From Actinomycetota bacterium (GTDB lineage: Bacteria > Actinomycetota > Acidimicrobiia > Acidimicrobiales > Microtrichaceae), in contig VGBZ01000019.1 of NCBI GenBank assembly GCA_016870275.1, positions 1 to 44,365 on the forward strand: DNA of 44,365 bases, written 5' to 3'. A program made the position numbers and the translations under genes. Shown here piece after piece: positions 1,704 to 16,577 of this stretch. Below the pieces are notes generated by a model. The model was given only the letters and a program-made list of their open reading frames with translations, searched no databases and had not been told where the DNA came from. Every line of letters starts with the position of its first letter. Within the stretch, counting starts at the first letter, position 1.

Positions 1704-3071
1704 TCAGGTGCCGACAGTCGGAGTCAGCGGTCCCGCCCGCCGACCACGGACACATCCGGTCCACACACCGGCGCCGTAGGCGACATCCTCGGTGACGGCG
1801 AGCGGGACGTCGCGGACCGGCAGCGGTGCGCCTCGGTTCCACCATCTGACCGCAACGGCGGCGGCGAACAAGCGCGCCGCCGGTCGACGGGTGGGGCGCA
1901 GCGCCAGGGCGAGGAGCACCAGGGGCCACCAGACCCGGATCGACGCCCGGGCGAATGATGCGCCAGCTGCGACGTGACCCTCGAGCCCGATGCGCACGGC
2001 GGGCAGTGGTGGCACTCCGGACAGGCGTCGCACGAGCGGCAACGCCGTCCCGGTGGCCACAAGCACCGCTGCGAACGGGTGACCGGCGAGGGCGGCCGCC
2101 ACCACGGCCAGGCTCGACCACGAGGACCGCCAGGGAGGCACGGACCCCGGGTGCCGCTCGTCGAGCGCTTCGGCCGAAGTGCCGTAGGCGAAACGCTGGG
2201 CCACCCACGACCGGAGGTCCTCCCGGGGCGAGTGGTGACACTCCACCTGCGGCTCGTAGCGCACCACGCCACCGGCTGCGGTCAGGCGCCAGACCAGATC
2301 GACGTCCTCCCCGACTCGCATCGTTGCGTCGAACCCGTCGGCGGCCGCGTCCCGGCGCACCATCAGGAGCGCTGCAGGCACGTGGCCGATCCTCCGGCCG
2401 GGACCGACGGGCCCGGGATCGGCTCCCAGGTCGAGCGGACCGTTGCGCTGCTCGTAGTCACCGATCCAACCGGGAACGGCGGCGGACCGGACCCGGCCAG
2501 CCACGGCCACCACCTGCGCATCGGCGAGGTGTGCGGAGAGGCCGGCGATCCAACCCGGGGTGACCGTGACGTCGGAATCGACGAACACGACGATCGGGTG
2601 GGATGCCGCCTCCAACCCCAGGTTGCGGGCGCCTCCCGGCCCGTGCGGTGTCTCAGCCCGCAGACAACGAGCGCCGTGGGCCTCGGCGACCCTCCGGTGC
2701 GCCTGGCCGTCGGTGGATCCGTCGTCGACGACGATGATCTCATCCGGTTCGTCACCACTCCGTCGCACCGAGTCGAGCAGTTCGGCGAGCGCAGCGGCTC
2801 GGTCACGAACCGGGACGACCATGGTCACTCCTCGACGATGGCCACGCAGCGCAGGGTCGGGATCGGGGTGCAGGACACCGCTCGATGTGAGCCGTTCGAG
2901 CAGTGCCACCTCACCCGGTGTCGTTGGCTCGCACGGTTCCTCCGGACTCACGAGCCGATCGACCCACGCCGCACCGGCGTCACTGAGGCGGAACAGCCGT
3001 CCGGGAACGCCGCCGAGGACGACCCGCCCGCCGTCGAAGCGCCGTGCGGCGTGGTCGAGTCGGTAGCGCAC
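1704..3071 (-). CDS. mftF: mycofactocin glycosyltransferase MftF
   Basis: A 455-residue family-2 glycosyltransferase. The GT-A domain starts near residue 82 (TMVVPVRDR), with the nucleotide-binding VVDDGSTDG, the metal-binding DSDV and an acceptor-loop GEDVDLVWRL. Hydrophobic segments follow residue 310, so membrane association is likely. The first 70 residues look like a small winged-helix segment (VVLGGVPGRLFRL) reminiscent of PqqD-type peptide-binding domains. In mycobacteria MftF adds a beta-1,4-glucose chain to premycofactocin. The GTG start lies 3 bp after the SDR stop codon, so co-transcription and probably coupled translation are expected. It is the last gene of the mft operon here. 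Identification rests on sequence character plus gene order. Confidence 0.9.
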   Translation of the reverse strand: MRYRLDHAARRFDGGRVVLGGVPGRLFRLSDAGAAWVDRLVSPEEPCEPTTPGEVALLERLTSSGVLHPDPDPALRGHRRGVTMVVPVRDRAAALAELLDSVRRSGDEPDEIIVVDDGSTDGQAHRRVAEAHGARCLRAETPHGPGGARNLGLEAASHPIVVFVDSDVTVTPGWIAGLSAHLADAQVVAVAGRVRSAAVPGWIGDYEQRNGPLDLGADPGPVGPGRRIGHVPAALLMVRRDAAADGFDATMRVGEDVDLVWRLTAAGGVVRYEPQVECHHSPREDLRSWVAQRFAYGTSAEALDERHPGSVPPWRSSWSSLAVVAAALAGHPFAAVLVATGTALPLVRRLSGVPPLPAVRIGLEGHVAAGASFARASIRVWWPLVLLALALRPTRRPAARLFAAAVAVRWWNRGAPLPVRDVPLAVTEDVAYGAGVWTGCVRGRRAGPLTPTVGT

Positions 3072-3074
3072 CGC

Positions 3075-3866
3075 TCAGACGGCAGTCATGCCGCCGTCGA
3101 CCGCGAGCACTGCGCCGGTCACGCCGGAAGCAGCGGGGTCGCACAGCCAGGCGACGGCGGCAGCGACCTCGTCGGCTTCGATGAGCCGGCCGACGGGGTG
3201 ATGCGCAGCGAACTCACCGGGCGAGTCCAGGTCGTAGACCGCAGCCGATGCCGCCAGGATGTCCGTATCGGTGGACCCTGGCGCAACGGCGTTCACGGTG
3301 ACCCCGCTGTCGGCGAGATCCGCCGCCAGGCTGCGCACGAGCCCCACCACGGCGTGCTTGGCGGCGCTGTAGGCACCGAGGTGCAGCAGCCCCCGACTCG
3401 ACCCGGCCGACGCCAGGGCGACGAAGCGTCCGCAACGGGGTGTGGGCTGGGCCAACAGCGCCGGGACAGTGGCCCGGATCAGGTGGTAGACGCCTCGGAC
3501 GTTGACGTCCATGACGACGTCCCAGACCCGCTCAGGCATCTCCCAGAGCGGAACGCCACCCCAGACCACACCGGCACCGGCGACCACGATGTCGAGTCGG
3601 TCCAACTCGGCGACGATCCTCTCCAGCGATTCGCTGTCACGGACGTCGCAGACCACCCCCTCGGCGCCAGGTCCGCAGTCGGCGACCACCTGTTCGAGTT
3701 GCGCCATGGTCGCCAGTGGGTAGTCGAGCAGGTCATCGCTGCCACAGGCATCGGAGTTGCAGGCGTCGAGGACCACCACCCGGTGTCCTGTCGCCGACAG
3801 CCGCCGACAGACCGCAGCCCCGATGCCTCGGGCACCACCGGTGACGAGAGCGACGGGGGCACTCAC
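3075..3866 (-). CDS. mycofactocin-system short-chain dehydrogenase (SDR)
   Basis: A 263-residue SDR starting at the GTG at 3866, which overlaps the mftE stop codon as GTGA. The NAD-binding motif TGGARGIG lies at residues 9-16 and the catalytic Y-x3-K at 166-170 (GAYSAAK). Between the second beta strand and the DVRD motif there is an insertion of about 30 residues (SDDLLDYPLATMAQLEQVV). That insertion is the hallmark of mycofactocin-associated SDRs, which are thought to hold NAD(H) without exchange and to pass electrons to mycofactocin. Its position between mftE and mftF fits the mycofactocin-associated SDR subfamily usually encoded inside mft clusters. The substrate is unknown. Confidence 0.88.
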   Translation of the reverse strand: MSAPVALVTGGARGIGAAVCRRLSATGHRVVVLDACNSDACGSDDLLDYPLATMAQLEQVVADCGPGAEGVVCDVRDSESLERIVAELDRLDIVVAGAGVVWGGVPLWEMPERVWDVVMDVNVRGVYHLIRATVPALLAQPTPRCGRFVALASAGSSRGLLHLGAYSAAKHAVVGLVRSLAADLADSGVTVNAVAPGSTDTDILAASAAVYDLDSPGEFAAHHPVGRLIEADEVAAAVAWLCDPAASGVTGAVLAVDGGMTAV

Positions 3867-4618
3867 CGCTGTGCCCCGACGCCGGATGCAGACGGATCGA
3901 CGTCGACGCCCGACACCGTCAGGTTCGCACGCCACGAACGCACGGCGTTGGACAGGTCCTCGACCAGTGCAGCGACGATCCGCTCCCCCTCTTCCGCCGA
4001 CGCACCACGAGGATCACCGAGGACGCCGTTCGGACTCACCGCTGCGAGTCCGTCCCGCACCACGACGTCCCGGACATCGCGCCATCGCACGGTCGAACCG
4101 GCCTCGATCCGGTCGAGGCGAACTGCTTCGGGGTCGAGGTACAGCAGCACCGACGTCTCGGTGTGTCCGGCGTGAGAGTCTCCACCGGCTACCTGCGGAT
4201 GCCACACCAACACGGGGCGCCCCTCGTCTGCGAGCAGCGCCGCCGCCGTTGCGGTCGCCTCGACATTCCCTCCGTGGCCGTTGACGATGACCATCCCGTA
4301 GAACGGTTGCGGCAGATCCGACCCCAACGGAGGCAAGGCCGAGCGAGCCAACTCCACGAGCACGTCGACCAACGCCGTCGAACCGATCGACAGCGTCCCG
4401 GGGAACGACTGGTGCTCCCCCGAGGCACCGATCCCGATCGGTGGTGAGACGAGCGCCTCGGGGAGATGCTCAGCGACCGACGCGGCGAGCGCCACGGCGA
4501 TCCGGGTATCGGTGTCGAACGGGAGATGGGGTCCGTGTTGTTCGCAACTCCCGAGGGGGACCAACAGCAACCGCCCGGCCGTCACCTCGGTCCAGGTCAT
4601 CCCGGCGAGCGCACTCAC
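3863..4618 (-). CDS. mftE: mycofactocin precursor peptidase MftE
   Basis: A 251-residue creatininase-family metallohydrolase. Metal ligands are visible in GSCEQHGPHLPFDTD near residues 23-37 and in the NGHGGN and HAGHTETS motifs. In characterised systems MftE releases the C-terminal Val-Tyr-derived AHDP from the MftC-modified precursor. The GTG start at 4618 overlaps the fixA stop as GTGA, and its own stop overlaps the SDR start the same way. It therefore sits in a translationally coupled chain joining the Fix module to the mycofactocin genes. The last 15 residues after VSGVDVD are likely disordered. Confidence 0.92.
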   Translation of the reverse strand: MSALAGMTWTEVTAGRLLLVPLGSCEQHGPHLPFDTDTRIAVALAASVAEHLPEALVSPPIGIGASGEHQSFPGTLSIGSTALVDVLVELARSALPPLGSDLPQPFYGMVIVNGHGGNVEATATAAALLADEGRPVLVWHPQVAGGDSHAGHTETSVLLYLDPEAVRLDRIEAGSTVRWRDVRDVVVRDGLAAVSPNGVLGDPRGASAEEGERIVAALVEDLSNAVRSWRANLTVSGVDVDPSASGVGAQR

Positions 4619-5442
4619 GCCGGATCCGGCTCGTCGAGGTAGCCCCAGCTGCGGAGTTGCTCGAGGATCATCCCCGCAGCCTCCGGTGGATCGAGCGCAA
4701 CGGTGCGCGGCGGCGTCCGCTCGACGAGCGCCCCGGTGAGTTCGACAACTCGGTCGAGCGGCGTTCCAGTCGGCGCCGAGGCCACCCGAGTCGGCGGCGA
4801 GAACGCGCGCGTCGGGAGCGTCCGGACCGAGAGGGGGACGTCGGTGGCCACCACCTCCACGGGGACGGCGTCGGCGAGCACCGAACGCAACGGAGCTCGT
4901 CGGAGTTCCGCCACGCTGCCCTCCACCGACATCACTGCGGGCGCATCGACCACCGCCACCTCCCGGCGACCTCCGTCGAGCCGGCGCACGACCCGCAACG
5001 AGCCGGGGCCCTCCGTGTGGACCTCGACGAGCCCCAACGCCTGGGCAGCGCCGAGGTGATGAGCAATGAACGCCGGCACCGACCCCGACCCCCGATCACT
5101 CGAGTAGTCACCGCAGACGACCACATCGGCACCCACGTCGGCGAGCGTTGCTGCGAGCAGCCGGCCCACCGTCGAGGAGTCGACCCCACGCGGTGCGTCG
5201 ATGCGGACGGCAGCGTCGATGCCGACAGCGGCGAGTTCGACGAGCAGCGGCTCGGCCCGGGGCGGGCCGACGCTGATGAGGAGCGTCCGTGCCGACCATG
5301 ACTCAGCGAGTCGACGGACCACTTCCACCGCGGCACGATCAGCAGCGGAACATCCGACCTCCCGACCGGGATCGACCGAACCGGTGAGCGGATCGACCAG
5401 CGGGCGGATTTCGACGAGCTTGACGCACGCAGCGATCAGCAC
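4615..5442 (-). CDS. fixA: electron transfer flavoprotein beta subunit, FixA-like, mycofactocin-associated
   Basis: A 275-residue ETF beta subunit starting at GTG 5442 (VLIAACVKLVEIRP), chosen because GGAG lies about 9 bases upstream and the start is 5 bp after the fixX stop. The family pattern is visible: an N-terminal strand, a D-x-A-A segment, the AMP/FAD-region CGDYSSDRGSGSVPAFIAHHLG, and later APAVMSVEGSVAELRRAPL. It would pair with the FixB-like alpha subunit. It is divergent from housekeeping EtfB, as expected for an associated paralogue. Whether it carries the bifurcating FAD cannot be judged by eye. Confidence 0.85.
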   Translation of the reverse strand: MLIAACVKLVEIRPLVDPLTGSVDPGREVGCSAADRAAVEVVRRLAESWSARTLLISVGPPRAEPLLVELAAVGIDAAVRIDAPRGVDSSTVGRLLAATLADVGADVVVCGDYSSDRGSGSVPAFIAHHLGAAQALGLVEVHTEGPGSLRVVRRLDGGRREVAVVDAPAVMSVEGSVAELRRAPLRSVLADAVPVEVVATDVPLSVRTLPTRAFSPPTRVASAPTGTPLDRVVELTGALVERTPPRTVALDPPEAAGMILEQLRSWGYLDEPDPA

Positions 5443-5447
5443 GGCGT

Positions 5448-5771
5448 TCAGCTCCGGTGGAACACGACCCCGTGCCCGCCCTCGGGGTAGGTCCAGGTGA
5501 TCGCACCTTCCTCGTTGCACACGAGGTAACAGGTGCCGCACTCGAAGCACTGCTCGTAGTTGAACAGGATCCCGCCGGCAGCGGTCGGAACGAACAGGTT
5601 GGCCGGACACGCCGTGATGCAACCCCGCGTCGTGCAGTCCCGGCACACGGTGTCATCGACGGTGATGTGCGCCCGATCTGAGTCGACCCGGAACTCGACA
5701 GTGCTCATCCGGCGCTCGAAGCTGATCTCGGGGTACGACGACGCAGTCATGACTCCTCCAGCATCGCTCAT
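5448..5771 (-). CDS. fixX: ferredoxin-like protein FixX
   Basis: A 107-residue ferredoxin-like protein. Two cysteine sets are present: C43-x2-C46-x4-C51-x3-C55 and C75-x2-C78-x2-C81-x3-C85, enough for two [4Fe-4S] clusters or one plus a degenerate site. The second set, CFECGTCYLVC, is followed by IxWTYPEGGHGV, a signature of the FixX/ETF-QO C-terminal ferredoxin. In Fix systems this protein works with FixC to pass electrons to quinone or ferredoxin. The ATG overlaps the fixC stop (ATGA), so the two are translationally coupled. Confidence 0.93.
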   Translation of the reverse strand: MSDAGGVMTASSYPEISFERRMSTVEFRVDSDRAHITVDDTVCRDCTTRGCITACPANLFVPTAAGGILFNYEQCFECGTCYLVCNEEGAITWTYPEGGHGVVFHRS

Positions 5772-7072
5772 CCGAACGTGCGCAGCGCACGCAGGCCCTC
5801 ACGGAACAGGTCACGCAACCGAACCCCGTGGCGACGGAGACGCTGCCGGACGATGCGGCGCATGCCCGGCTTGGGCGTGGGGTTCGTCACAGTGAACACG
5901 TCCTCCACGACACCACAGGCCACTGCAGGCAGCACCCGCTGGGCGAGATCGCTCATGACGAGGTGCGGGGCGTCACGGAGTCGGCGGTGATCGGACAGGA
6001 CGAAGCTCGACTCGAGACTCGATCGGTAGCCGGCCAGACCCGCAGCGGATGCATCACCGCGTCGAGCGGCGAGCGCTGCGGTGCGGCCGGCCAGGGCACC
6101 GGAGCCGATGGCGAAGTTGACACCCTCCAACCAGATCCCGGCGGCCAGACACATGGCGGCCGCATCGCCGGCGACCAGGATCCCGTCACCGACGAGCTCG
6201 GGCATCATGTCGTAGCCGGCCTCGGGAATCACGTGAGCCGAGTACTCAACGACCTCGCCCCCCTCGATCAACGGCGCGATCGCCGGGTGGGCCTTGAGCA
6301 GCCGGAGGATCTCCTCGGGACGGGTGCCACCGGCGGCGAGTGCTGGAAGCGACAGGACGAGCCCGACCGCCACAGTGGAACGGTTGGTGTAGACGAACCC
6401 GCCGCCGGGAACGTCACCGGTGCATCCGAGGATCTCGATGTCCACGCCCTCGTCACCGCGGACGGCGAACCGCTCGTCGATCACGTGGCGCGGCAGGGCG
6501 ATGGTCTCCTTCACGCCGACGGTGAAGTTGGACGGATCGTCGTGGGGGTACATCCCGGCCTCCTTGGCCAGGAACGAGTTCACGCCGTCACAGGCCACGA
6601 CCACCGAGGCCCGCAGGTCACCGTTCGGGCGGTCGGTGCGAACGCCCACCACCTGCCCGGCCTCACGGATCAGACCGGTCGCCGTCGTCGAGCACACCAG
6701 TTCGGCACCGGCGTCCACCGCCACGCCGGCGAGCCAGCTGTCGAACTCGGGTCGGTAGGCGGTCGCTCCGTTGTGCGGAGCCTCGCCCCATCCGGGGTTG
6801 CGGAAGTCGACGGTGAGCGCCTGGTCCCCGGAGATCAGCATGGTGCTCCGCCGGGTCACCCACCGCTCGACTGGCGCCTGTTCCCACCACGCCGGAACGA
6901 GCGTGTCGAGGATGCGTCCGTAGACGACGCCGCCGTACATGTTCTTGGACCCTGGCGACGGACCTCGCTCGAGGAGGCAGACCGACCGACCGGCCCGCGC
7001 CACCTCGATCGCAGCTGCAGACCCCGCCGGGCCAGCGCCCACGACAACCACGTCGAAGTCGGTTCCGCTCAC
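5768..7072 (-). CDS. fixC: FAD-dependent oxidoreductase FixC (ETF-quinone oxidoreductase-like)
   Basis: A 434-residue FixC/ETF-QO family flavoprotein. The dinucleotide-binding GxGxxG is at the N terminus (VVVGAGPAGSAAA), followed by LLERGPSPGSKNMYGGVVYG, the conserved substrate/quinone-side region, and a second FAD motif VAGDAAAMC around residue 300. With FixX it forms the equivalent of ETF-quinone oxidoreductase and would act at the inner face of the membrane. The GTG start overlaps the fixB stop as GTGA. Placed inside a mycofactocin operon, it is a candidate route for oxidising reduced mycofactocin (inference). Confidence 0.92.
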   Translation of the reverse strand: MSGTDFDVVVVGAGPAGSAAAIEVARAGRSVCLLERGPSPGSKNMYGGVVYGRILDTLVPAWWEQAPVERWVTRRSTMLISGDQALTVDFRNPGWGEAPHNGATAYRPEFDSWLAGVAVDAGAELVCSTTATGLIREAGQVVGVRTDRPNGDLRASVVVACDGVNSFLAKEAGMYPHDDPSNFTVGVKETIALPRHVIDERFAVRGDEGVDIEILGCTGDVPGGGFVYTNRSTVAVGLVLSLPALAAGGTRPEEILRLLKAHPAIAPLIEGGEVVEYSAHVIPEAGYDMMPELVGDGILVAGDAAAMCLAAGIWLEGVNFAIGSGALAGRTAALAARRGDASAAGLAGYRSSLESSFVLSDHRRLRDAPHLVMSDLAQRVLPAVACGVVEDVFTVTNPTPKPGMRRIVRQRLRRHGVRLRDLFREGLRALRTFG

Positions 7073-8010
7073 GCCGTCGCTCCGGTCGAGTCAGCCGGTG
7101 CCGGTTCATCGAGGAGCCGGGCGAGTTCGGCGATGGTCTCGTTGGCGTCGGCCACGATCGCCACGTCGGCCATGGACATCATCGGACAGTGCGGCTCGGT
7201 GTTGATGCTGATGATGTGGTCCGGATCGCCCAGGCCGGCGGTGTGCTGCACGGCGCCGGAGATCCCGAAGGCCAGGTACAGCGCCGGATCGACGACCACA
7301 CCGGTCGTCCCGATCTGACGTTCGTGGGCGAGCCACCCCCGGTCGGTGACCACACGGGTCGCCCCCATGGCCGCTCCGATCCGACCCGCCACCGCAGCGA
7401 GTTGTTCGAATCGCCCCGGGCCGTCGAGGCCGGCTCCTCCTCCGACCAACCTGGGCGCCTCCACGAGGTCCATGGTGGAGAGGTCCGGGGCGAGCACCTC
7501 GACGGTCACGGCGTCACGTGCTCCGCCGGTTCGGATCTCGAGATCGACCGGTTGTGGTCCCGTCCCGTGCTCGTGCGACTCAGCGGTCACCGCCACCGGC
7601 TGGACCGTCCACACCACCGGCCCCTCGACGGGAACATCGACCATCACCGACCCGCCCCAGGCGGAGACGGTCAGGACCCCGTCATCATGTTCGACGACCC
7701 CGGCGACGAGCGGTCGGCCGAGTTCCGCCGCCAAGCGGGGAGCGAGATCGCGGCCATCCGGTGACCCAGGGAGGATCACCGCATCGAACCGCTCGACGAA
7801 CTCGGCGAGCGGCGCCGCCCACCGCCCCGGCGAGAACCCGGAGGTCTCCCAGACCCACAGGTCAGATGCCGAGGCACCGAGGTGCGCCGCCGCCTCGTCG
7901 GTGCCGTCACCGACGAGCAACGCCGCGCCACCGGCTGCGGCCACGGCCCGCAGCGATCCGGACGGCAGGACTCCACTCCGGACGCAGACGATGGCGAGGG
8001 CGTCGGGCAT
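7069..8010 (-). CDS. fixB: electron transfer flavoprotein alpha subunit, FixB-like, mycofactocin-associated
   Basis: A 313-residue ETF alpha subunit. The C-terminal FAD domain is clear: ERQIGTTGVVVDPALYLAFG, then ISGAVQHTAGL, then IISINTEPHCPMMSMADVAI, matching the family pattern QVGxTGxxVxPxLYxAxGISGAxQHxxG. The N-terminal half is more divergent. The start at ATG 8010 lies 6 bp after the upstream OYE stop. Together with fixC, fixX and fixA it completes a FixABCX set. The order B-C-X-A differs from the usual fixABCX order. Confidence 0.92.
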   Translation of the reverse strand: MPDALAIVCVRSGVLPSGSLRAVAAAGGAALLVGDGTDEAAAHLGASASDLWVWETSGFSPGRWAAPLAEFVERFDAVILPGSPDGRDLAPRLAAELGRPLVAGVVEHDDGVLTVSAWGGSVMVDVPVEGPVVWTVQPVAVTAESHEHGTGPQPVDLEIRTGGARDAVTVEVLAPDLSTMDLVEAPRLVGGGAGLDGPGRFEQLAAVAGRIGAAMGATRVVTDRGWLAHERQIGTTGVVVDPALYLAFGISGAVQHTAGLGDPDHIISINTEPHCPMMSMADVAIVADANETIAELARLLDEPAPADSTGATA

Positions 8011-8016
8011 CGGGAC

Positions 8017-9993
8017 TCAGCGACCGACCAGCACGGCGCTGGCCGCCATGATCCCGGCGCCGACCCGCTCACCGTCGATCACTGCGGCGTGGGCCCGTCG
8101 GGGAGCGACGGCGTCGCCGACCCGGTGCACGGCGTAGCCAGCCGCCTGCAGCTCTCCGAAGAGGGCGTCGGCCGGGGTCGAGGGGACTGCGAGAACCACC
8201 CAGTCCACCCGGCGCTCCTGTTCGGTGCCGGTCGGGTGGTGCTGAAACGTCACCGAGTGGTCCCCTGCGGACATGGGGACCAACTCGGTGGTCTGCTCGA
8301 TCCCCTTGGCCTCAGCTCGAATCCACCAGTTCTCCAGATCCAGTGTGATCCCGAGGTCCTGACCGACGACCATGCCCGGGGTGACGACCTCGACCTGGCA
8401 CCCGCGATCCGCGAGCAACTCGGCAACCGACGTGGCGTGGTGGAACCCGAGTTCATCGAGCACCAGCACCGAACCGTTCGGCTGCACGGACCCCTCCAGG
8501 ACGTCGCGCACGTCGACGATCCACTCGGCATCGTCCGGCGCCCACCACGGTCGGGCCGGGACCGATCCGGTGGCCACGACCACGGTGTCAGGATCCCGAC
8601 GTCGGACCTCGGCGAGGTCCACGTCGACACCACACTCGATCTCCACGCCGAGCCGGCCACACTCCTGCAACTGGTTGCGCACCAGATCGCCGAACTCGGC
8701 CCGGTTGGGAACGGTGGCGGCCAGTCGCACCTGCCCGCCGGCGTGTTCGGACCGCTCGAGCACCGTGACATGGTGACCGTTTCGGGCTGCAGCGATGGCC
8801 GTCTGGAGACCGGCGGGTCCGGCGCCGACGACGAGGACCCGTCGGCCCACACTCACCGGTCGGGCCTGTCCGACACCGAGTGACTCCCGTCCAGCGGCGG
8901 GGTTCTCGATGCACCCCAACCAGCGATTGAGACCCATCCGCCCGACGCACTCCTGGTTGCAGGACAGGCACAGGCGGGTGTCATCGGTGTGACCGGCACG
9001 GGCCTTGGCGACGAACTCAGGGTCAGCGATCTGACCTCGCACGACCCCGACCAGGTCGCACTGGCCCTCGGTGAGCGCCCGCTCCACCTGGAGCGGATCC
9101 TTGAAGCGCCCCACCCCCACGACCGGCAGGTCGACGGCCTCACGGATGGCCGAGGGGATGAACATGGAGTAGCCCGGCGGGATGTGCATCGACGCCTCGA
9201 TCATGAACAGCGACGCCGTGGCCACACCGATCGAGGTGTTGATGTAGTCGACCGATCCTGTGGCCTCGACCATGCGGGCCACTTCCACGGCCTCGTCGAT
9301 CGTGGTGCCACCTTCGATGAGCTCGTCGCCGCAGAGGCGCACGCCGAGCGCCAGGTCGGGCCCGATCACCCTCCTGACCTCAGCGACGATCTCGAGCAGG
9401 ATCCGAGCCCGATTGGCGAGGCTCCCGCCGTAGTCGTCGTGGCGGCGGTTGGTCGCCGGAGAGAGGAAGCCGCGCACGATGGAACTGTGGGAGCACTGCA
9501 GTTCGACGCCGTCGAACCCACCTTCGGCGCAGTGCTCGGCGACGAGCCCGTACGACGCCACGATCTCGGCGATCTCAGAGGTGGTCACGGCCTTGGGGAC
9601 CTCTCGGAAGAGCGGATCGGCCACCGGCGACGGCGCCCACACCGGCAACCTCGAGTACATCGAGCTCGCCTGCCCACCGTTGTGGTTGATCTGGGCGAGA
9701 ATCGGAACACGGTGACGATGCACCGCCTCGGTGATCCGCCGGTAGCCGGGGATCACCTCGGGGTGGAATCCGTGGATGAGCTTCTCGTACGGCCAGTCGG
9801 TCGGGTGGGTCGAGTGCTCCTCGGTGATGATCAGTCCTGCTCCACCCGCAGCCCGGGCGGCGTAGTAGGCCGCATGCTGCTCGGTGGGAAGACCGTTCTC
9901 GGCGTAGTTGGTGAGGTGCGCCGAGAAGACGATCCGATTCCTGACGGTCAGCGGCCCGAGTTGGAGCGGCGACCAGATCAACGGATCAGCCAT
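8017..9993 (-). CDS. mycofactocin-system FadH/OYE-family iron-sulfur flavoprotein (promoter-distal copy)
   Basis: A 658-residue member of the 2,4-dienoyl-CoA reductase/trimethylamine dehydrogenase family. An OYE-type FMN barrel covers residues 1-340 with the conserved DDYGGSLANR near 186-195. A [4Fe-4S] motif follows at C342-x2-C345-x3-C349-x11-C361, then an FAD/NAD(P) domain beginning at VLVVGAGPAG. Mycofactocin clusters of some actinobacteria are known to carry two such OYE-type proteins, and this locus has both. The electron donor and substrate are not established. The gene is separated by 146 bp of repeat-rich DNA from the small gene upstream and is followed closely by fixB. Confidence 0.9.
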   Translation of the reverse strand: MADPLIWSPLQLGPLTVRNRIVFSAHLTNYAENGLPTEQHAAYYAARAAGGAGLIITEEHSTHPTDWPYEKLIHGFHPEVIPGYRRITEAVHRHRVPILAQINHNGGQASSMYSRLPVWAPSPVADPLFREVPKAVTTSEIAEIVASYGLVAEHCAEGGFDGVELQCSHSSIVRGFLSPATNRRHDDYGGSLANRARILLEIVAEVRRVIGPDLALGVRLCGDELIEGGTTIDEAVEVARMVEATGSVDYINTSIGVATASLFMIEASMHIPPGYSMFIPSAIREAVDLPVVGVGRFKDPLQVERALTEGQCDLVGVVRGQIADPEFVAKARAGHTDDTRLCLSCNQECVGRMGLNRWLGCIENPAAGRESLGVGQARPVSVGRRVLVVGAGPAGLQTAIAAARNGHHVTVLERSEHAGGQVRLAATVPNRAEFGDLVRNQLQECGRLGVEIECGVDVDLAEVRRRDPDTVVVATGSVPARPWWAPDDAEWIVDVRDVLEGSVQPNGSVLVLDELGFHHATSVAELLADRGCQVEVVTPGMVVGQDLGITLDLENWWIRAEAKGIEQTTELVPMSAGDHSVTFQHHPTGTEQERRVDWVVLAVPSTPADALFGELQAAGYAVHRVGDAVAPRRAHAAVIDGERVGAGIMAASAVLVGR

Positions 9994-10050
9994 GTGCGCA
10001 GGCTACCCACGAAGTACATCGCGCAACGATCCCGACACACGGTGGACCTG

Positions 10051-10098
10051 GGGACGGCGGCGCCAAGGGACGGCGGCGCCAAGGGACGGCGGCGCCAA
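10051..10098. repeat. three tandem 16-bp repeats
   Basis: Three exact copies of gggacggcggcgccaa in the gap between the OYE gene (start 9993) and the 113-residue protein gene (stop 10140). Each copy contains the palindrome ggcgcc. No coding role is apparent. Confidence 0.92.
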
Positions 10099-10120
10099 GG
10101 GACTGCAGCGGGCGCAGGTG

Positions 10121-10148
10121 GGCTCGGCTCAGGCTCGGCTCAGGCTCG
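10121..10148. repeat. 11-bp tandem repeat, 2.5 copies
   Basis: ggctcggctca occurs twice with a further partial copy. It overlaps the end of the 113-residue protein gene. Confidence 0.85.
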
Positions 10149-10481
10149 ACGGCGGCCACGCAGCACGGCCGTGGCCACGCCGGCGACGGTCGAGACCGCA
10201 GCCGCAGCTCCTCCGGCGACGGCCGCGAGGCGACCCCAGAGGAACTGTCCCGGTCCGCCGTCGGGGAGGCCGATCACCCGACGCTGCGCATCGACGAGGA
10301 CGTCGCCGACGGGTTCGAGTCCGAAACCCACGAGACGCCCGTTGCGAACGTGGCCGAACAGTCCGCCCGGCATGGCCACTGCCACATCCTCGTGGGAACG
10401 AAATGCCGAGTCGGCTGACTTGGCGAGCTCAACGGCCTGGGAGATGGTCCGCTCGAGCAGTTCCTTGGTGGTGTTCAACAT
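10140..10481 (-). CDS. unrecognised 113-residue membrane-anchored protein inside the mft operon
   Basis: I do not recognise a family. The gene is credible because the ATG at 10481 has a strong ribosome-binding site (GGAGG, 6 bases upstream) and it lies between two same-strand OYE genes. The N-terminal 35 residues look helical and amphipathic (LLERTISQAVELAKSADSAF). A compact segment follows with GGLFGHVRNGRLVGFGLEPVG and GLPDGGPGQF. A hydrophobic alanine/valine-rich segment near residues 82-106 (LAAVAGGAAAAVSTVAGVA) ends in RGRRRA. It would be a tail-anchored protein with its N-terminal part in the cytosol. A role in tethering the OYE or Fix proteins to the membrane is possible but only an inference. 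Confidence 0.7.
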   Translation of the reverse strand: MLNTTKELLERTISQAVELAKSADSAFRSHEDVAVAMPGGLFGHVRNGRLVGFGLEPVGDVLVDAQRRVIGLPDGGPGQFLWGRLAAVAGGAAAAVSTVAGVATAVLRGRRRA

Positions 10482-10578
10482 GGTCGCCTCCGGAAGCCGG
10501 CCGAGACGCCCGCTCGCCCCGCCAGCCTCTTCATGCTACCTGCTCACGCCACCCATCGGAAGGCCCCGGCCGGGTCGA

Positions 10579-12564
10579 TCAACCCGAGAACGTGCCGGCG
10601 ACACGGCGGCCCTCGAGGACTGCTTCGTGGACGGTCCTCGGCGCCACGGCGTCGCCGACCCAACGCCCGTCGGCGGCCACACCGAGGTCACCCGAAGCGC
10701 TCGCCGCCGGGAGCCTGTGACCGGCATCGACGACGGCGACCACGTCGAGTTCGTAGCGACGAGCGGTGAACCGGTCCTCGAGCGTCGCCGTCGTGGGGGC
10801 CACCGAGCGCAGCACACTTCGCCGGTGCATGGTCACCCCGGAGCGAGCGAGTCGGCCGTTGGCGTCGCCGAGGTCTCCCGAGCGGGCGAGTTCGTTGCCG
10901 ACGATGAAGTCCAAGGTGGCGAGGTGGACGTTCCGTCCCGCTGCGGCGAGGAGTTCGGCGACGCCGACGCCGATCGGTCCGCCGATCGGATCCCAGACGA
11001 GCACGTCACCGTCGGGGATCTGATCGCCGGAGAGCACGCTGCGTGCGGGGACGAACTCCGCTCCATCGAGCAGGTCCACCCCGGGGTCGCCGTCGGTCCC
11101 GCCAACCGCGACGACCACCGGGCCATTGGCGCTCAGCGCTGCTGCGTCGGAGGTATCCACGTCGGAGCTGGTCTCGGCACGCACACCGAGGCGGAGCAGC
11201 TCGCGTTCGTACCAACGGGCGAGATCGGCGAAACGCTCACGGCCCGGGAGCGCGGCCACGGTCCAGAGGAGGCCGCCGAGGTGATCGCCACGCTCGAGGA
11301 CGGTGACGGGACGACCGAGCCCAGCCGCCACCCGGGCCGCCTCGAGTCCGGCGGGCCCACCTCCGACGACGGTCACGGCTGTTCCGCTGCGGCTCGGCGA
11401 GGTGTTCGCAGCAACGTCGAGTGCACTCAGCAACGGCTCGTCGGCCTCGTGGCCGGTGGCCGGGTCGACCGTGCAGCTCACGATCGGGTTCCTGTTGTCG
11501 CGCACGGCGCACTGCTGGTTGCACAGCACACACGGCCGAATCCGTTCGGGCGTCCCGACGGCGAGCTTGGCCACCAGGTCGGCGTCGGCGAGTTGCGCTC
11601 GCGTCATCTCGACCAGATCAGCGACGTCGTCGTCGATCGCCCACGCTGCCTGGTCAACGTCGACGATCGACCCCTGGGCGCAAATAGCGACCCTCCCGTC
11701 CGTGGCGGCCACGACGGCTCGTCGAACCGAACGGGTCAGCTCCAGGTTGAATCCCGGGTCGGTGTGGCCGTCGGGTCGGGTCGCCCCAGCGGAGTAGATG
11801 GAGCCGCGCACGACGGTGAGGAGGTCGACACGTGACGGACCGGAGACGAGCGCTGCGGCGAGATCCGGGGCCTGCTCGGGGGTGATGCCCGCCCACGGGG
11901 CGAGTTCGTCGCACGACAACCGAAGGGCGAGCACGGCGTCGGATCCGATCGCCGCCCGGACTGCAGCGAGCACCTCGACGAGGAACCTGCTCCGATCCGC
12001 CCCCCACTCGTCGTCGCGGGTGTTGGTGAGGCCCGAGAGGAACTGCCGGGCCAACGAGTACTGACCGGCGTTGACCTCCACGCCGTCGCAGTCGGACCCG
12101 ACCGCCAGCGAAGCAGCAGAGGCGAAGCCCGCCACCACCGCCTCGATGTCGCCCGCCTCCATCACCTTGGGGATCTCCCGGGTGTTGACCTCGGGCACCG
12201 GGGACGGTGCCCACAGCTCACGCTGGCTCCAGTGCGACGTGCCCTGCCCGCCGCTGTGGCCGATCGCCGCCAACACCACAGCCCCGGCGTCGTGACAGAC
12301 CCTGGACACCTCCGTCCAACCGGGTCCGCACTCTGTGGCGAGCGGAGCCCGCTCGAGCGGCCAGTCCGACGGGTGGACCGAGGCCTCCTCGGTGATGATC
12401 AACCCCGTGCCGCCCTCGGCCCGGCGGCGGTAGTAGGCGACGTGACGTTCGGAGATGCTGCGCCCACGGCCGAGGTTGGTCTCGTGTGGTCCGAGGACGA
12501 TCCGGTTGCGCACCGATCGACTGGCCAGGTCGAACGACTCGAGCAGTGGGGACACGCCGCTCAT
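10579..12564 (-). CDS. mycofactocin-system FadH/OYE-family iron-sulfur flavoprotein (promoter-proximal copy)
   Basis: A 661-residue paralogue of the other OYE in this operon with the same layout: FMN barrel, [4Fe-4S] motif C345-x2-C348-x3-C352-x11-C364, then an FAD/NAD(P) domain starting at VTVVGGGPAG. It is more divergent. The DDYGGSL motif of its partner is replaced by DDEWGADRSRF, and the C-terminal dinucleotide domains carry fewer standard glycines. The two probably have different partners. Start at ATG 12564, 114 bp after mftC. The pairing of two OYE enzymes with mycofactocin is known from comparative genomics; their chemistry is not. Confidence 0.88.
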   Translation of the reverse strand: MSGVSPLLESFDLASRSVRNRIVLGPHETNLGRGRSISERHVAYYRRRAEGGTGLIITEEASVHPSDWPLERAPLATECGPGWTEVSRVCHDAGAVVLAAIGHSGGQGTSHWSQRELWAPSPVPEVNTREIPKVMEAGDIEAVVAGFASAASLAVGSDCDGVEVNAGQYSLARQFLSGLTNTRDDEWGADRSRFLVEVLAAVRAAIGSDAVLALRLSCDELAPWAGITPEQAPDLAAALVSGPSRVDLLTVVRGSIYSAGATRPDGHTDPGFNLELTRSVRRAVVAATDGRVAICAQGSIVDVDQAAWAIDDDVADLVEMTRAQLADADLVAKLAVGTPERIRPCVLCNQQCAVRDNRNPIVSCTVDPATGHEADEPLLSALDVAANTSPSRSGTAVTVVGGGPAGLEAARVAAGLGRPVTVLERGDHLGGLLWTVAALPGRERFADLARWYERELLRLGVRAETSSDVDTSDAAALSANGPVVVAVGGTDGDPGVDLLDGAEFVPARSVLSGDQIPDGDVLVWDPIGGPIGVGVAELLAAAGRNVHLATLDFIVGNELARSGDLGDANGRLARSGVTMHRRSVLRSVAPTTATLEDRFTARRYELDVVAVVDAGHRLPAASASGDLGVAADGRWVGDAVAPRTVHEAVLEGRRVAGTFSG

Positions 12565-12678
12565 GCTGCCCCGTGGTGAACGGCCCGCCCCAACCCGGAG
12601 ACCGTGGTTCGGCCGACGTCGACGACGTCGCCTCTCAGCAGAGCGAAGCTGCGACGGCCTGGGTGCAGGAGGGTCAGC

Positions 12679-13857
12679 TCACGCCCCGGAACGCCTGGTG
12701 GGGCGCAACGTCACCGGCGACGGCACCGACACCCCGGGCCTCGAGTGGTCGACTCGTGCCCGAGGGACAACGGAATCCGTGCCGAGCGCAGCGAGCAACG
12801 GCTCGGCATGGCCGAGAACGCACTCGGGGTCCGGGTCGGTCAGGTCGAATCCGACGAAGAACTTCGACGCCATGCACCCTCCCTGGCAGGCGTCGTAGCT
12901 GCCGCAGCTCACGCACGCCCCTTCGCTGTCGGGCTCCCGGAGCGATGTGAACAGCTCCGACTCGCGCCACACGCTGGTGAACCCGCCGTCGTTACGGACG
13001 TTGCCGGCGAGGAACTCGTCGTGGATCACGAAGGGACAGGCGTAGACATCACCGACCGGGTCGATGAGGCAGACCACCCGGCCGGCACCGCAGAGGTTGA
13101 GCCCCGGGAGTGGCTCGCCCAGTGCGGACAGGTGGAAGAACGAGTCGCCGGTGAGCACGGCGGGACGTTCCAGGAGCCAGTGGTAGAGCTGGCGCTGTTG
13201 TTCCTGGGTCGGGTGGAGATCGTGCCAGGTGTCGGCGCCCCGGCCGGAGGGACGGAGACGGGTGACCCGGAGCTGGGCGCCGTACTGCGCTGCGATGTCG
13301 GCGAACGCATCGAGTTGGTCGACGTTCTGGCGGGTCACCACGACGCTGATCTTGAACGGACCGAAGTCAGCGTCGGCGAGATGATCCATGGCCTGACGAG
13401 CTGCTGCGAAGGATCCCCGACCTCGCAGCGCATCGTTGACTCCGGAGGTGGCACCGTCGATGGAGATCTGGACGTCGAGGTAGTCCATCCCGGCGAGGCG
13501 TCGAGCCGCAGCAGCGTCGATGAACGTTCCGTTGGTCGAGAACTTCACCCCCACGTGGTGGGACACGGCATGGTCGACGATGTCGAAGAAGTCGCTTCGC
13601 ATCATCGGCTCGCCGCCGCCGAGGTTCACGTAGAACACCTGCAGGCGCTGGAGTTCGTCGATGACGGCGAAGCACTCCTCCGTGCTCAACTCCGCCGGAT
13701 CACGTCGCCCGGAACTCGACAGGCAGTGGGCGCAACTCAGGTTGCACGCATACGTCAGCTCCCAGGTCAGGCAGATGGGGGCGTCGAGGCCGAGGCGGAA
13801 CTCCTCGACGAGCGGTCGGGTGGCCGCCGGCGGTTGGGAGACGACCTCAGGTCGCAC
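12679..13857 (-). CDS. mftC: mycofactocin radical SAM maturase MftC
   Basis: A 392-residue radical SAM/SPASM enzyme. The SAM cluster motif C38-x3-C42-x2-C45 (CNLSCAHC) is near the N terminus, followed by GGGEPMM. The C-terminal SPASM region includes LNLCGAGRVVCLIDPVGDVYACPF and CVSCGSYDACQGGC. MftC decarboxylates and cross-links the C-terminal Val-Tyr of MftA. The GTG start overlaps the end of mftB by 11 bp. A roughly 30-residue arginine/proline-rich tail follows the last cysteine. Confidence 0.96.
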   Translation of the reverse strand: MRPEVVSQPPAATRPLVEEFRLGLDAPICLTWELTYACNLSCAHCLSSSGRRDPAELSTEECFAVIDELQRLQVFYVNLGGGEPMMRSDFFDIVDHAVSHHVGVKFSTNGTFIDAAAARRLAGMDYLDVQISIDGATSGVNDALRGRGSFAAARQAMDHLADADFGPFKISVVVTRQNVDQLDAFADIAAQYGAQLRVTRLRPSGRGADTWHDLHPTQEQQRQLYHWLLERPAVLTGDSFFHLSALGEPLPGLNLCGAGRVVCLIDPVGDVYACPFVIHDEFLAGNVRNDGGFTSVWRESELFTSLREPDSEGACVSCGSYDACQGGCMASKFFVGFDLTDPDPECVLGHAEPLLAALGTDSVVPRARVDHSRPGVSVPSPVTLRPTRRSGA

Positions 13858-14122
13858 AGAGCACCTCTGAGTCCGACAGCGTGGCCAAGGCCGTCAGGAA
13901 CGAGGCGTGGCGCCCGGAGTCGACGCCGGCGGAGTCGAGCACCTCACCAACGGTGCGTTCCCCGTCGAGCGCCTCGACCACGGCGAGCAGGTCGACGTGC
14001 TTGATGAACGACAACCGGCGGTTGCCGAAGTGGTAGGCGAGCGCTCCGAAGCGCTCCGGCCGGAGGGCCACGTCGGGGTGGAGGACCAGGCGGTCCGCAA
14101 GGGTCACTGGCACCGGGTCCAT
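13847..14122 (-). CDS. mftB: mycofactocin precursor-binding chaperone MftB
   Basis: A 91-residue PqqD-like RiPP recognition protein that presents MftA to MftC. The pattern VxLHPDVALRPERFGALAYH followed by RRLSFIKHVDLLAVVEALDGERTVGEVLD is typical of MftB. ATG at 14122, 39 bp after the mftA stop. The length fits the family. Confidence 0.95.
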   Translation of the reverse strand: MDPVPVTLADRLVLHPDVALRPERFGALAYHFGNRRLSFIKHVDLLAVVEALDGERTVGEVLDSAGVDSGRHASFLTALATLSDSEVLCAT

Positions 14123-14161
14123 ACTGTGTCGTCCTGAGGGTTGTTGCAGCCGAGACCGGGA

Positions 14162-14323
14162 TCAGTAGACCCCGCACATCCCATCGATCGAGACCTCCTC
14201 GACCAGGAGCTCCTCGACCAGGTGCTCCTCGACCACGGGTTCCTCGACCACGGGATCTGCGTGAGGAGACTCCTCACCGGTTGCAGCAGCCTGGTTGCTC
14301 GTCTGGATGGATGCGTTCGACAC
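14162..14323 (-). CDS. mftA: mycofactocin precursor peptide MftA
   Basis: A 53-residue precursor ending in the invariant core IDGMCGVY, whose last two residues become the redox cofactor. I chose the GTG at 14323 because a perfect AGGAGG lies 6 bases upstream; a longer frame from 14395 lacks support. The leader carries the acidic repeat PVVEE-PVVEE-HLVEE-LLVEE, encoded by four tandem 15-bp units at 14195-14254. Such an expanded leader is unusual. It is the first gene of the mft operon and diverges from the alcohol dehydrogenase gene. Confidence 0.97.
   Translation of the reverse strand: MSNASIQTSNQAAATGEESPHADPVVEEPVVEEHLVEELLVEEVSIDGMCGVY
14195..14254 (-). repeat. mftA: four tandem 15-bp repeats in the mftA leader
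   Basis: Units 14195-14209, 14210-14224, 14225-14239 and 14240-14254 share the core tcctcgacca. They encode [VL]VEE pentads in register just before the core peptide. Confidence 0.92.
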
Positions 14324-14492: not shown

Positions 14493-15617
14493 ATGCCAAC
14501 CAAAACCAACGCCGCTGTGTTGTGGGGGCCGCAACAGGACTGGAAGGTCGAGCAGATCACCATCGACGATCCGGGCCCCGGTGAGATCCGTGTCCGGACC
14601 GCAGTGGCTGGAATGTGCCACTCGGACGAGCACGTGGTGCAGGGCGACATGATGATTCCCCACTTCCCGTTCGTCGGCGGCCACGAAGGTGCCGGTGAGG
14701 TCGTGGCGGTCGGACCCGGGGTCCGCTCCGTTGAGCTCGGAGATCACGTCGCCATGTCGTTCATCCCGTCGTGCGGACGCTGCAAGTGGTGTTCGACAGG
14801 TCGCCAGAACCTCTGCGACGAGGGCGCCAAGTTGTTCGACACCCACATGATGACCCGGGGACTCGGTGACCACTCGCACACGATCGGCGATGTCGACGTC
14901 GCCCGGTTCGCCCAGCTCGGGACCTTCTCCGAGGAGCTCCTCCTGAGCGAGAACTCCGTGGTCCGCATCGAGAAGGACCTCCCCTTCGACGTGGCGGCTC
15001 TCGTGTCGTGCGGCGTGGCGACCGGGTGGGGTTCGGCGGTGCACCGGGCAGAGGTGCAGCCCGGCGACAACGTGGCCGTCATCGGGATCGGCGGTGTTGG
15101 GATCAATGCCGTTCAGGGCGCACGGATGGCCGGTGCCAAGCGGGTCATTGCGATCGATCCGGTGGAGTTCAAGCGGGAGAAGGCCATGGAGCTCGGCGCC
15201 ACCCACACCTACTCCTCCATCGAGGAAGCCCTGCTCGCCGTGCCGGACCTCACGTGGGGAGACATGTGCGACTCGGTGATCCTCGTCCCCGGCGTCGTCA
15301 CCGGCGACATGATCGAACCCTCGCTCAACCTGGTGTCCAAGGGCGGGACGCTGGTCGTGACCGCCATCGGGAACATGCTCGAGTCCAACGTCACGATGAA
15401 CCTGTTCATGCTGTCGATGATGAACAAGGAGGTGAAGGGCACCGTGTTCGGCTCGGGCAATCCTCGGGCCGACATCCCCGCCCTGCTCTCCATGTACCGC
15501 GAGGGCGAACTGAAGCTCGACGAGCTCATCACCAACCGATACACCCTCTCCGAGGTCAACCAGGGCTACCAGGACATGCGCGACGGGGTGAACATCCGCG
15601 GCGTCATCGAGTTCTGA
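14493..15617 (+). CDS. NDMA-dependent (nicotinoprotein) alcohol dehydrogenase, mycofactocin-coupled
   Basis: A 374-residue zinc MDR enzyme. Catalytic zinc ligands C42 and H64-E65 (GGHEG), structural zinc cysteines C94, C97, C100, C108, and the NAD motif GIGGVG at 198-203 are all visible. The C-terminal stretch YTLSEVNQGYQDMRDGVNIRG and the GCGVATGWGSAV-type segment match the NDMA-dependent alcohol dehydrogenase family (the Rxyl_3153-like type). These enzymes bind NAD(H) tightly and need mycofactocin, or the artificial acceptor NDMA, to be reoxidised. It is encoded divergently from mftA, and its MoxR and VWA genes follow closely. The alcohol substrate is unknown. Confidence 0.93.
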   Translation: MPTKTNAAVLWGPQQDWKVEQITIDDPGPGEIRVRTAVAGMCHSDEHVVQGDMMIPHFPFVGGHEGAGEVVAVGPGVRSVELGDHVAMSFIPSCGRCKWCSTGRQNLCDEGAKLFDTHMMTRGLGDHSHTIGDVDVARFAQLGTFSEELLLSENSVVRIEKDLPFDVAALVSCGVATGWGSAVHRAEVQPGDNVAVIGIGGVGINAVQGARMAGAKRVIAIDPVEFKREKAMELGATHTYSSIEEALLAVPDLTWGDMCDSVILVPGVVTGDMIEPSLNLVSKGGTLVVTAIGNMLESNVTMNLFMLSMMNKEVKGTVFGSGNPRADIPALLSMYREGELKLDELITNRYTLSEVNQGYQDMRDGVNIRGVIEF

Positions 15618-16560: not shown

Positions 16561-16577
16561 CCCCGCCCCGGAGCGGG

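Follow-up and report, generated by a model that had tools for sequence, protein, structure and literature searches.

Gene content of the mycofactocin operon

We analyzed a stretch of 44,365 nucleotides (the window; contig VGBZ01000019.1 of assembly GCA_016870275.1) from an actinobacterium of the class Acidimicrobiia whose genome (G000) comprises 3.2 Mb in 137 contigs and is 96% complete. The window carries a mycofactocin (mft) operon that runs on the minus strand from 14323 to 1704 in the order mftA-mftB-mftC-OYE1-(113-aa ORF)-OYE2-etfA-fixC-fixX-etfB-mftE-SDR-mftF (Table 1), where OYE stands for old yellow enzyme, etfA and etfB encode an electron transfer flavoprotein (ETF), SDR is a short-chain dehydrogenase/reductase and ORF an open reading frame. 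A block of six genes, OYE1-OYE2-EtfA-FixC-FixX-EtfB, thus lies on a single strand between mftC and mftE. No mftD is present in the cluster, and no protein in the genome exceeds the cut-off for MftD (TIGR03966; best 255 and 224 bits vs 471). On balance, we regard the block as a probable non-homologous replacement of MftD, the premycofactocin synthase.

An earlier note on this DNA had described the OYE pair and the ETF/Fix genes between mftC and mftE, and all of the genes it named are present in the order given. It had placed the operon at 4615-14323; mftA to mftF do share one strand, and the true span is 1704-14323, position 4615 being the end of etfB. Its family identifications stand for the mft genes, both OYE proteins, EtfA and EtfB, which exceed their NCBIfam cut-offs, whereas FixC and FixX are named by similarity, their best NCBIfam models scoring below cut-off. 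The key fact it overlooked is the missing mftD, with the block in its slot. The etfB start is probably the GTG at 5442, because the longest ORF, from 5646, overlaps fixX and the TIGR04503 match starts at its residue 71.

Table 1. Coordinates and family matches of the mycofactocin genes in the window.
Feature	Position	Strand	Family match
mftA, precursor peptide, 53 aa, C-terminal IDGMCGVY, GTG start	14162..14323	-	C-terminus TIGR03969 45.5 bits (cut-off 25)
mftB, chaperone	13847..14122	-	TIGR03967 93.4 bits (cut-off 33)
mftC, radical SAM maturase	12679..13857	-	TIGR03962 599 bits (cut-off 265)
OYE1, mycofactocin FadH/OYE family oxidoreductase 1	10579..12564	-	TIGR03996 704 bits (cut-off 628)
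113-aa ORF, family-less	10140..10481	-	no Pfam match
OYE2, mycofactocin FadH/OYE family oxidoreductase 2 (proposed AHDP dehydrogenase)	8017..9993	-	TIGR03997 983 bits (cut-off 793)
mft etfA (fixB-like), ETF alpha	7069..8010	-	NF038209 354 bits (cut-off 240)
fixC-like flavoprotein (ETF:quinone oxidoreductase)	5768..7072	-	PRK10157/PRK10015 329 bits (below cut-offs, 466 and 610); PF21162 ETFQO_UQ-bd 28.0 bits (cut-off 27.7)
fixX-like 4Fe-4S protein	5448..5771	-	PRK15449 51.7 bits (below cut-off, 166); Fer4 families
mft etfB (fixA-like), ETF beta	4615..5442	-	TIGR04503 223 bits (cut-off 200); proposed GTG start at 5442
mftE, peptidase	3863..4618	-	TIGR03964 265 bits (cut-off 172)
Mycofactocin-coupled SDR dehydrogenase	3075..3935	-	TIGR04504 325 bits (cut-off 250)
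mftF, glycosyltransferase	1704..3071	-	TIGR03965 366 bits (cut-off 280)
NDMA-dependent alcohol dehydrogenase, mycofactocin client, divergent	14493..15617	+	TIGR03989 534 bits (cut-off 440)

Distribution of the ETF block and of MftD

Genomes were drawn from the class of the window host (395 genomes, of which 95 have mftC and 37 have mft_etfA over cut-off) and from its phylum (396 genomes, adding 28 mftC-positive genomes from beyond the class). Below, G denotes genomes of these draws, L individual mft loci, and f and g codes for families and genera. The mft_etfA assignments are separated by a clear gap, the lowest member scoring 279.7 bits and the next protein 184.6. Because many genomes are highly fragmented and several come from metagenomes, little weight attaches to any single absence, and the pattern rests on many. 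Fisher tests ignore kinship; tests on independent pairs account for it.

The mft_etfA gene occurs in 36 of the 95 mftC-positive genomes of the class vs 1 of the 300 without mftC (p = 4e-24), which bears out the earlier reading of the ETF/Fix set as part of the mycofactocin system. The single mftC-negative carrier, G385, is split into 250 contigs, and its congeners of other species, G019 and G051, have both genes. The pairing of block and mftC is above chance, the same block accompanying mftC in many unrelated genomes.

Presence of MftD follows the opposite pattern. Among 80 mftC-positive genomes of the class, MftD exceeds its cut-off in all 44 that lack mft_etfA vs 1 of the 36 that carry it; in the remaining 15, none of which has mft_etfA over cut-off, MftD is found in 10. 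Outside the class MftD is found in 26 of the 28 mftC-positive genomes; one of the two exceptions, G434, exceeds the mft_etfA cut-off. Taken over all 123 mftC-positive genomes, those with mft_etfA divide into 1 with and 36 without MftD, and those lacking mft_etfA into 80 with and 6 without (p = 1e-23). Only in G283 are mft_etfA and MftD found together; its two mft clusters read A-B-C-D-E-SDR-F and A-B-C-E-SDR-F, and the six-gene block lies on a third contig (loci L047, L048 and L007). Five of the six double-negative genomes hold a more divergent OYE-ETF-Fix block, in four of them by mftC (G358, G134, G332 and G565, the last with one OYE in view) and in G214 on another contig. OYE2 (TIGR03997) is found genome-wide in 36/36 ETF-type genomes (34 over cut-off; in G173 and G338 the gene is cut by contig ends) and exceeds its cut-off in 0/44 MftD-type genomes (best 572 bits vs 793).

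The two types share one gene slot, with the order C-OYE1-OYE2-EtfA-FixC-FixX-EtfB-E in the ETF type and C-D-E in the MftD type (as in G743). Across 43 ETF-type genomes (counting G385), the fetched stretches contain EtfA in 43, FixC in 41, OYE2 in 39, OYE1 in 38, FixX in 35 and EtfB in 33, several of the gaps being contig or stretch ends and the EtfB of G565 and G134 falling under the detection threshold used; none of the six genes occurs in the stretches of 14 MftD-type genomes. In several f2 genomes the ETF part lies on a contig other than that of mftABC and is still accompanied by mftE and mftF. Genes for the mycofactocin-coupled SDR and the NDMA-dependent alcohol dehydrogenase (NDMA-ADH) are present in loci of both types.

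Both types occur within families f2, f3, f4, f5, f16, f19 and f36 and within genera g41 and g48, and the contrast of mftC-[block]-mftE with mftC-mftD-mftE is seen inside the genus Streptomyces too. A quick tree of 175 MftC rows has at least 17 changes of type. The pair tests left out both G283 rows; on the starred branches of this tree, independent pairs are opposite in 8 of 8 cases (p = 0.008; 16 pairs with all branches counted). A careful tree with 75 rows, from which nine near-identical rows and 11 genomes that are distant or have long branches were omitted, shows 12 changes of type; here independent pairs are opposite in 9 of 9 cases (p = 0.004; 12 pairs with all branches counted). Both traits in these pair tests come from a single classification, which was checked against genome searches for some rows and against locus flanks for the rest. 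The rows outside the trees are G223 and G300 (MftC split or partial), G197, G212, G221 and 24 of the 28 genomes from beyond the class, which are thus represented by G405, G434, G565 and G743; L083 and L121 were stateless in the quick tree. Under midpoint rooting, the ETF type occupies the deep branches (Desulfuromonadales, Pelotomaculum, G565 and a Bacillota genome), with the MftD types nested, a direction that is a lead only, because the root was not inferred and long branches are flagged.

To look beyond the class, contigs were scanned with an MftC profile led by the divergent G565, and the best 80 of at least 581 loci were examined. This named set overlaps the drawn one (L107 and G205 give the same MftD coordinates). 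Because the mft_etfA model stays below its cut-off in these genomes (NF038209 reaches 240 bits in 0/44, among them 15 of ETF/OYE type from beyond the class whose best score is 187 bits), they were typed by gene order. Twenty-eight of the 80 loci, from 27 genomes, are of the ETF/OYE type, with EtfA in view in 22. Their hosts include Pelotomaculum, Peptococcaceae, another Bacillota, Desulfobulbaceae, Geobacter, other Desulfuromonadales, Oligoflexia, Competibacteraceae, Alphaproteobacteria, Dormibacteraeota, an Actinomycetes genome and others, anaerobes among them. MftD is found in 0/22 EtfA-bearing loci and exceeds its cut-off in 0/28 genomes searched (the 27 of ETF/OYE type plus that of L083, of undefined type, whose 4-kb contig shows mftC and mftF only); among four other named genomes searched it does so in those of L103, L107 and L155 but not in that of L121. 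MftD is present in 48/80 loci, and EtfA, EtfB, FixC and FixX are found in none of the 48 at the thresholds used.

Plasmids divide in the same way. A search of 72,556 plasmid records, on the plasmid sequences alone (mftC at E 1e-60, MftD at E 1e-90), returned 12 mftC plasmids. MftD lies on four of them (Mycolicibacterium chubuense, Streptomyces NBC_00080, Tsukamurella and Thermomicrobium) and on no further plasmid among the records, and it is exactly these four mftC plasmids that show no match to OYE. All of the remaining eight do show one, six from Streptomyces at 68-71% identity and the archaeal Haloterrigena and Halolamina plasmids at 37%; for the latter two the annotation shows one OYE, EtfA, FixC, a ferredoxin and EtfB. 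We read 11 of the 12 regions; the S. lavendulae plasmid is un-annotated and was assigned by its matches. A ninth OYE-matching plasmid, from R. rhodochrous (36% identity), is not an mftC plasmid.

A candidate premycofactocin synthase with a proposed link to the quinone pool

The functional assignments given here are putative and derive from distribution, gene order and sequence. MftD deaminates AHDP to premycofactocin (PMFT), and deletion of its gene in M. smegmatis abolishes PMFT and leads to accumulation of AHDP (PMC7491314). As the module excludes MftD, a biosynthetic step is indicated rather than re-oxidation of mycofactocinol. MftA genes picked by the end pattern GxCGxY end in CGVY in 52/52 ETF-type and 52/52 MftD-type cases (the pattern fixes all but V); with a Val-Tyr core common to both types, AHDP should arise in both, and MftD would need a substitute where it is missing. 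We infer the reaction, the order of electron carriers and the choice of catalytic OYE as follows. MftC and MftE, or another peptidase, would yield AHDP. OYE2, with OYE1 as its partner where present, would move two electrons from the amino-bearing carbon of AHDP to FMN, and the resulting imine would hydrolyze to the premycofactocin keto-amide and ammonia. The 4Fe-4S cluster in OYE2 would then release the electrons to EtfA/EtfB, the mft ETF, from which FixC and FixX would relay them to the quinone pool. Block and MftD would thus share, besides their slot, the substrate AHDP and presumably the product PMFT, and are found together in one genome once in 37; MftD is unrelated to the block, a single FMN-dependent dehydrogenase (PF01070; Haft 2011) as opposed to six OYE, ETF, FixC and FixX proteins.

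The MftD family had been described as not universal, with its role left open (Haft 2011, PMC3023750). Like the window cluster, mycofactocin-like clusters of Saccharopolyspora have a TIGR03997 (OYE2) gene and no mftD; methylated mycofactocin is reported there, by citation of another paper, as a product of S. erythraea (PMC11162802). This is independent evidence that a cluster with OYE2 and without MftD can be productive; the accessible part of that account holds no mention of ETF/Fix genes or of a replacement of MftD (PMC11162802). The same observation speaks against the idea that organisms lacking MftD make a different end product, with the amine kept or otherwise changed, and that the module uses a variant cofactor. 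Such a divergence of the pathway could go with the MftE profile, built from the first genome set, having no match in 21/22 named ETF-type loci (L106 being the only exception). Precursor peptides end alike in both types, both include loci with mycofactocin-coupled SDR and NDMA-ADH genes, and we hold a different end product to be quite improbable. In the named ETF-type loci without an MftE-like protein, another peptidase may release AHDP. The view without MftE concerns loci L082-L112; an annotated ETF-type Streptomyces plasmid does hold mftE.

In OYE1 the four 4Fe-4S cysteines are kept in 50 to 53 of 54 copies; in OYE2 three are kept in 73/74 and the fourth position is C in 62 and D in 11. The first GxGxxG is retained in both proteins, whereas GxGxx[GA] at the position of the FadH NADPH site is found in 0 of the 72 OYE2 and 0 of the 44 OYE1 copies that cover this stretch (of 74 and 54). 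The second nucleotide site reads like that of histamine dehydrogenase, and the OYE1 and OYE2 profiles align to the end with 3k30 and 6de6, while the main FadH alignment breaks off at this site. Loss of the motif fits delivery of electrons to ETF and is no proof of it, because 2-naphthoyl-CoA reductase (6qkg) is also without the motif at the aligned place.

These features recall trimethylamine dehydrogenase (TMADH) and histamine dehydrogenase, which share with OYE1 and OYE2 the OYE barrel, the 4Fe-4S cysteines and the nucleotide domain over full length without the GxGxxG of the FadH NADPH site; for the mft proteins gene linkage suggests ETF as the acceptor. In TMADH, electrons of the 4Fe-4S cluster go to ETF (PMC8097209). 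By analogy, an OYE-type dehydrogenase would deaminate AHDP and deliver the electrons by way of ETF and FixC/FixX to quinone. The mft block differs in having two OYE paralogues, a dedicated ETF and FixC/FixX within the operon, and in a presumed role in cofactor biosynthesis rather than catabolism. We considered OYE2 as a member of the TMADH family and dropped this, the cysteine that carries 6-S-cysteinyl FMN being missing; the likeness is one of working, not of membership.

The presence of two diverged OYE paralogues and a single ETF in most clusters of the class would suit a dual task, in which OYE2 deaminates AHDP, OYE1 oxidizes mycofactocinol and one ETF with FixC/FixX is shared, the AHDP amine and the mycofactocinol alcohol lying on the same ring carbon. 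OYE2 is also the more widespread and more conserved protein (46-83% identity to the window copy in the set aligned, vs 30-66% for OYE1), and no OYE1 is in view in G565, L082, L089, L091-L098 and L100-L102. This division of labor appears improbable: clusters with a single OYE exist, and Rhodococcus retains both OYE genes without mft ETF. The better conservation of OYE2, and the loci with OYE2 and no OYE1 in view, make OYE2 the likelier catalyst under the proposed replacement of MftD.

The block has the same four gene kinds as the FixABCX/EtfABCX systems of diazotrophs and Thermotoga, with FixC and FixX separate; unlike these, it is tied to mycofactocin genes and its EtfA and EtfB form NCBIfam families of their own. 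A bifurcating FixABCX, splitting electrons between quinone and ferredoxin or an OYE substrate, would accord with the separate FixC and FixX and with the best EtfB profile matches, the bifurcating ETFs 4kpu (103 bits) and 7koe (94 bits). The ETF beta subunit of TMADH (1o94_C) scores alike at 92 bits, with no clear gap, and the comparison of FixA/EtfB proposed earlier does not separate the two kinds. The GRQAIDGDTAQVGP of 4kpu reads CGDYSSDRGSGSVP in the window EtfB, at a stretch that we take to be a marker of the FAD or AMP site. We give bifurcation a very low probability, with the EtfB sequence itself undecided between the two kinds. The window EtfB reads ELRRAPL at a stretch presumably corresponding to the partner-recognition loop, which would fit a private ETF partner.

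The earlier note had instead offered the module as a stand-in for MftG, the mycofactocinol dehydrogenase of the GMC family, which like the block would connect mycofactocin chemistry to respiration. The module would then re-oxidize mycofactocinol (MFTH2) into the quinone pool. As the note had stated, no MftG is visible here, TIGR03970 having no match at E <=1e-40 in the window genome; the mft ETF genes are nearly confined to mftC-positive genomes (36/37 in the class); and about 25% of mft genomes are without MftG, the replacement being an open question in print (PMC11778925). In our searches (TIGR03970 only, in 80 plus 44 genomes) MftG exceeds its cut-off in 1/42 ETF-type vs 12/80 MftD-type genomes (Fisher p 0.03). 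The contrast may reflect one event, because all 12 MftD-type genomes with MftG, found among the 28 mftC-positive genomes beyond the class, belong to family f83. Within the class, presence of MftG does not track the ETF module: it is over cut-off in 1/95 mftC-positive genomes, G380, which carries the ETF module as well, and it is missing from all 54 MftD-only genomes, likewise without mft_etfA. The co-occurrence check suggested earlier therefore comes out in part, the fix/ETF genes tracking mftC and excluding MftD instead of following the absence of MftG. Replacement of MftG leaves the exclusion of MftD unexplained; on this distribution we set it behind replacement of MftD and judge it unlikely as the main function, and the module may carry mycofactocinol electrons as a second task.

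Several observations weigh against a replacement of MftD by the block. Nine of the 48 MftD-type loci (L114, L115, L117, L118, L123, L128, L139, L148 and L151, from Rhodococcus, Prescottella and Speluncibacter) hold MftD together with OYE1 and OYE2 and no ETF/Fix in view, which rules out that OYE genes per se are incompatible with MftD, and the OYE proteins may serve some other function in these loci; on a quick OYE2 tree their nine OYE2 sequences group as a single clade, within a starred (99) group that also holds those of the ETF-type genomes G283, G229, G308 and G390, a grouping that is a lead, three of the nine being flagged for odd letter make-up. Two genomes have neither MftD nor mft_etfA over cut-off, that of L121 (mftB, mftC and mftE in view) and the fragmented G197, in which mftC is at a contig end and whose congeners G221 and G212 have MftD. 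The FMN-binding cysteine of TMADH and histamine dehydrogenase (Cys30 in TMADH) is absent in OYE2 (L in 68, R in 3, M in 1 and a gap in 2 of 74) and is C in 1/54 OYE1 copies. By score, the nearest solved relatives of both OYE proteins are reductases, 2-naphthoyl-CoA reductase and 2,4-dienoyl-CoA reductase. The predicted structure of OYE2 (pLDDT 83.5) matches over full length 2-naphthoyl-CoA reductase (Z 46.3), FadH (1ps9; Z 44.7, 624 aligned), TMADH (2tmd; Z 44.5, 629 aligned, root-mean-square deviation 3.7), 6-HPON amine oxidase (Z 43.4) and histamine dehydrogenase (Z 42.9) in a comparison that re-examines Foldseek's own list. In favor of the replacement, three of these five kinds of proteins oxidize amines (histamine dehydrogenase, TMADH and 6-HPON amine oxidase). 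The first four proteins listed differ by less than 3 Z units, so that structure does not choose between reduction and amine oxidation.

The order of the two routes can be addressed more tentatively. We give somewhat less than an even chance to the module being an older, anaerobic premycofactocin route, a respiratory synthase that channels the electrons of AHDP into the quinone pool by its own ETF and ETF:quinone reductase, and MftD a later one-gene substitute that spread in aerobic actinobacteria, displacing the module many times in the same slot. The part played by oxygen is a guess from the anaerobic hosts, and transcripts of mftD in M. tuberculosis rise about 55-fold at 0.01% oxygen (PMC8406134), a further point against, which leaves an oxygen explanation of the swap unsecured and disfavors its simple form.

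The ETF subunits and OYE enzymes already bear NCBIfam names that associate them with mycofactocin, and absence of mftD along with an OYE gene has been published for Saccharopolyspora; for the exclusion between the mft ETF block and MftD we found no published account. In the literature searched, which covers few subscription papers, we found no publication treating ETF/Fix genes as a substitute for MftD and none pairing 'mycofactocin' with 'electron transfer flavoprotein'. The MftD reaction has been taken as an invariable part of mycofactocin biosynthesis, and a match to the MftD profile was a precondition for antiSMASH 6.1.1 to call mycofactocin clusters (PMC11162802). If the proposed replacement is true, cluster detection overlooks a sizeable share of mft clusters (42/123 genomes here are without MftD over cut-off), the cofactor is within reach of anaerobes, and one biosynthetic deamination has a respiratory chain of its own; the tempting reading of the ETF genes as the answer to the MftG question is corrected as well.

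Other features of the locus

The 113-aa ORF between OYE1 and OYE2 has eight matches in the fetched loci, the window included, all in family f1. The MftA leader (window 14165-14250) contains repeated VEE-type units (VVEEPVVEEHLVEELLVEEV) immediately before the core. A MoxR-type AAA ATPase and a VWA-domain protein lie at 15637-17513 of the window, after the NDMA-dependent alcohol dehydrogenase, and relatives of the AAA protein are found in 26 and of the VWA protein in 25 of the scanned loci (window included), in both ETF and MftD types. The pair may act as activators or metal inserters for mycofactocin-dependent dehydrogenases. Haloarchaeal mft clusters also adjoin a chelatase-like VWA protein and an AAA ATPase (L205, 21305-24479; L206, 20874-23998). 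We considered whether the window and the haloarchaeal clusters have this pair in common, and the comparison reveals a distant chelatase-like pair only (AAA 28% over 160 aa; VWA not significant).

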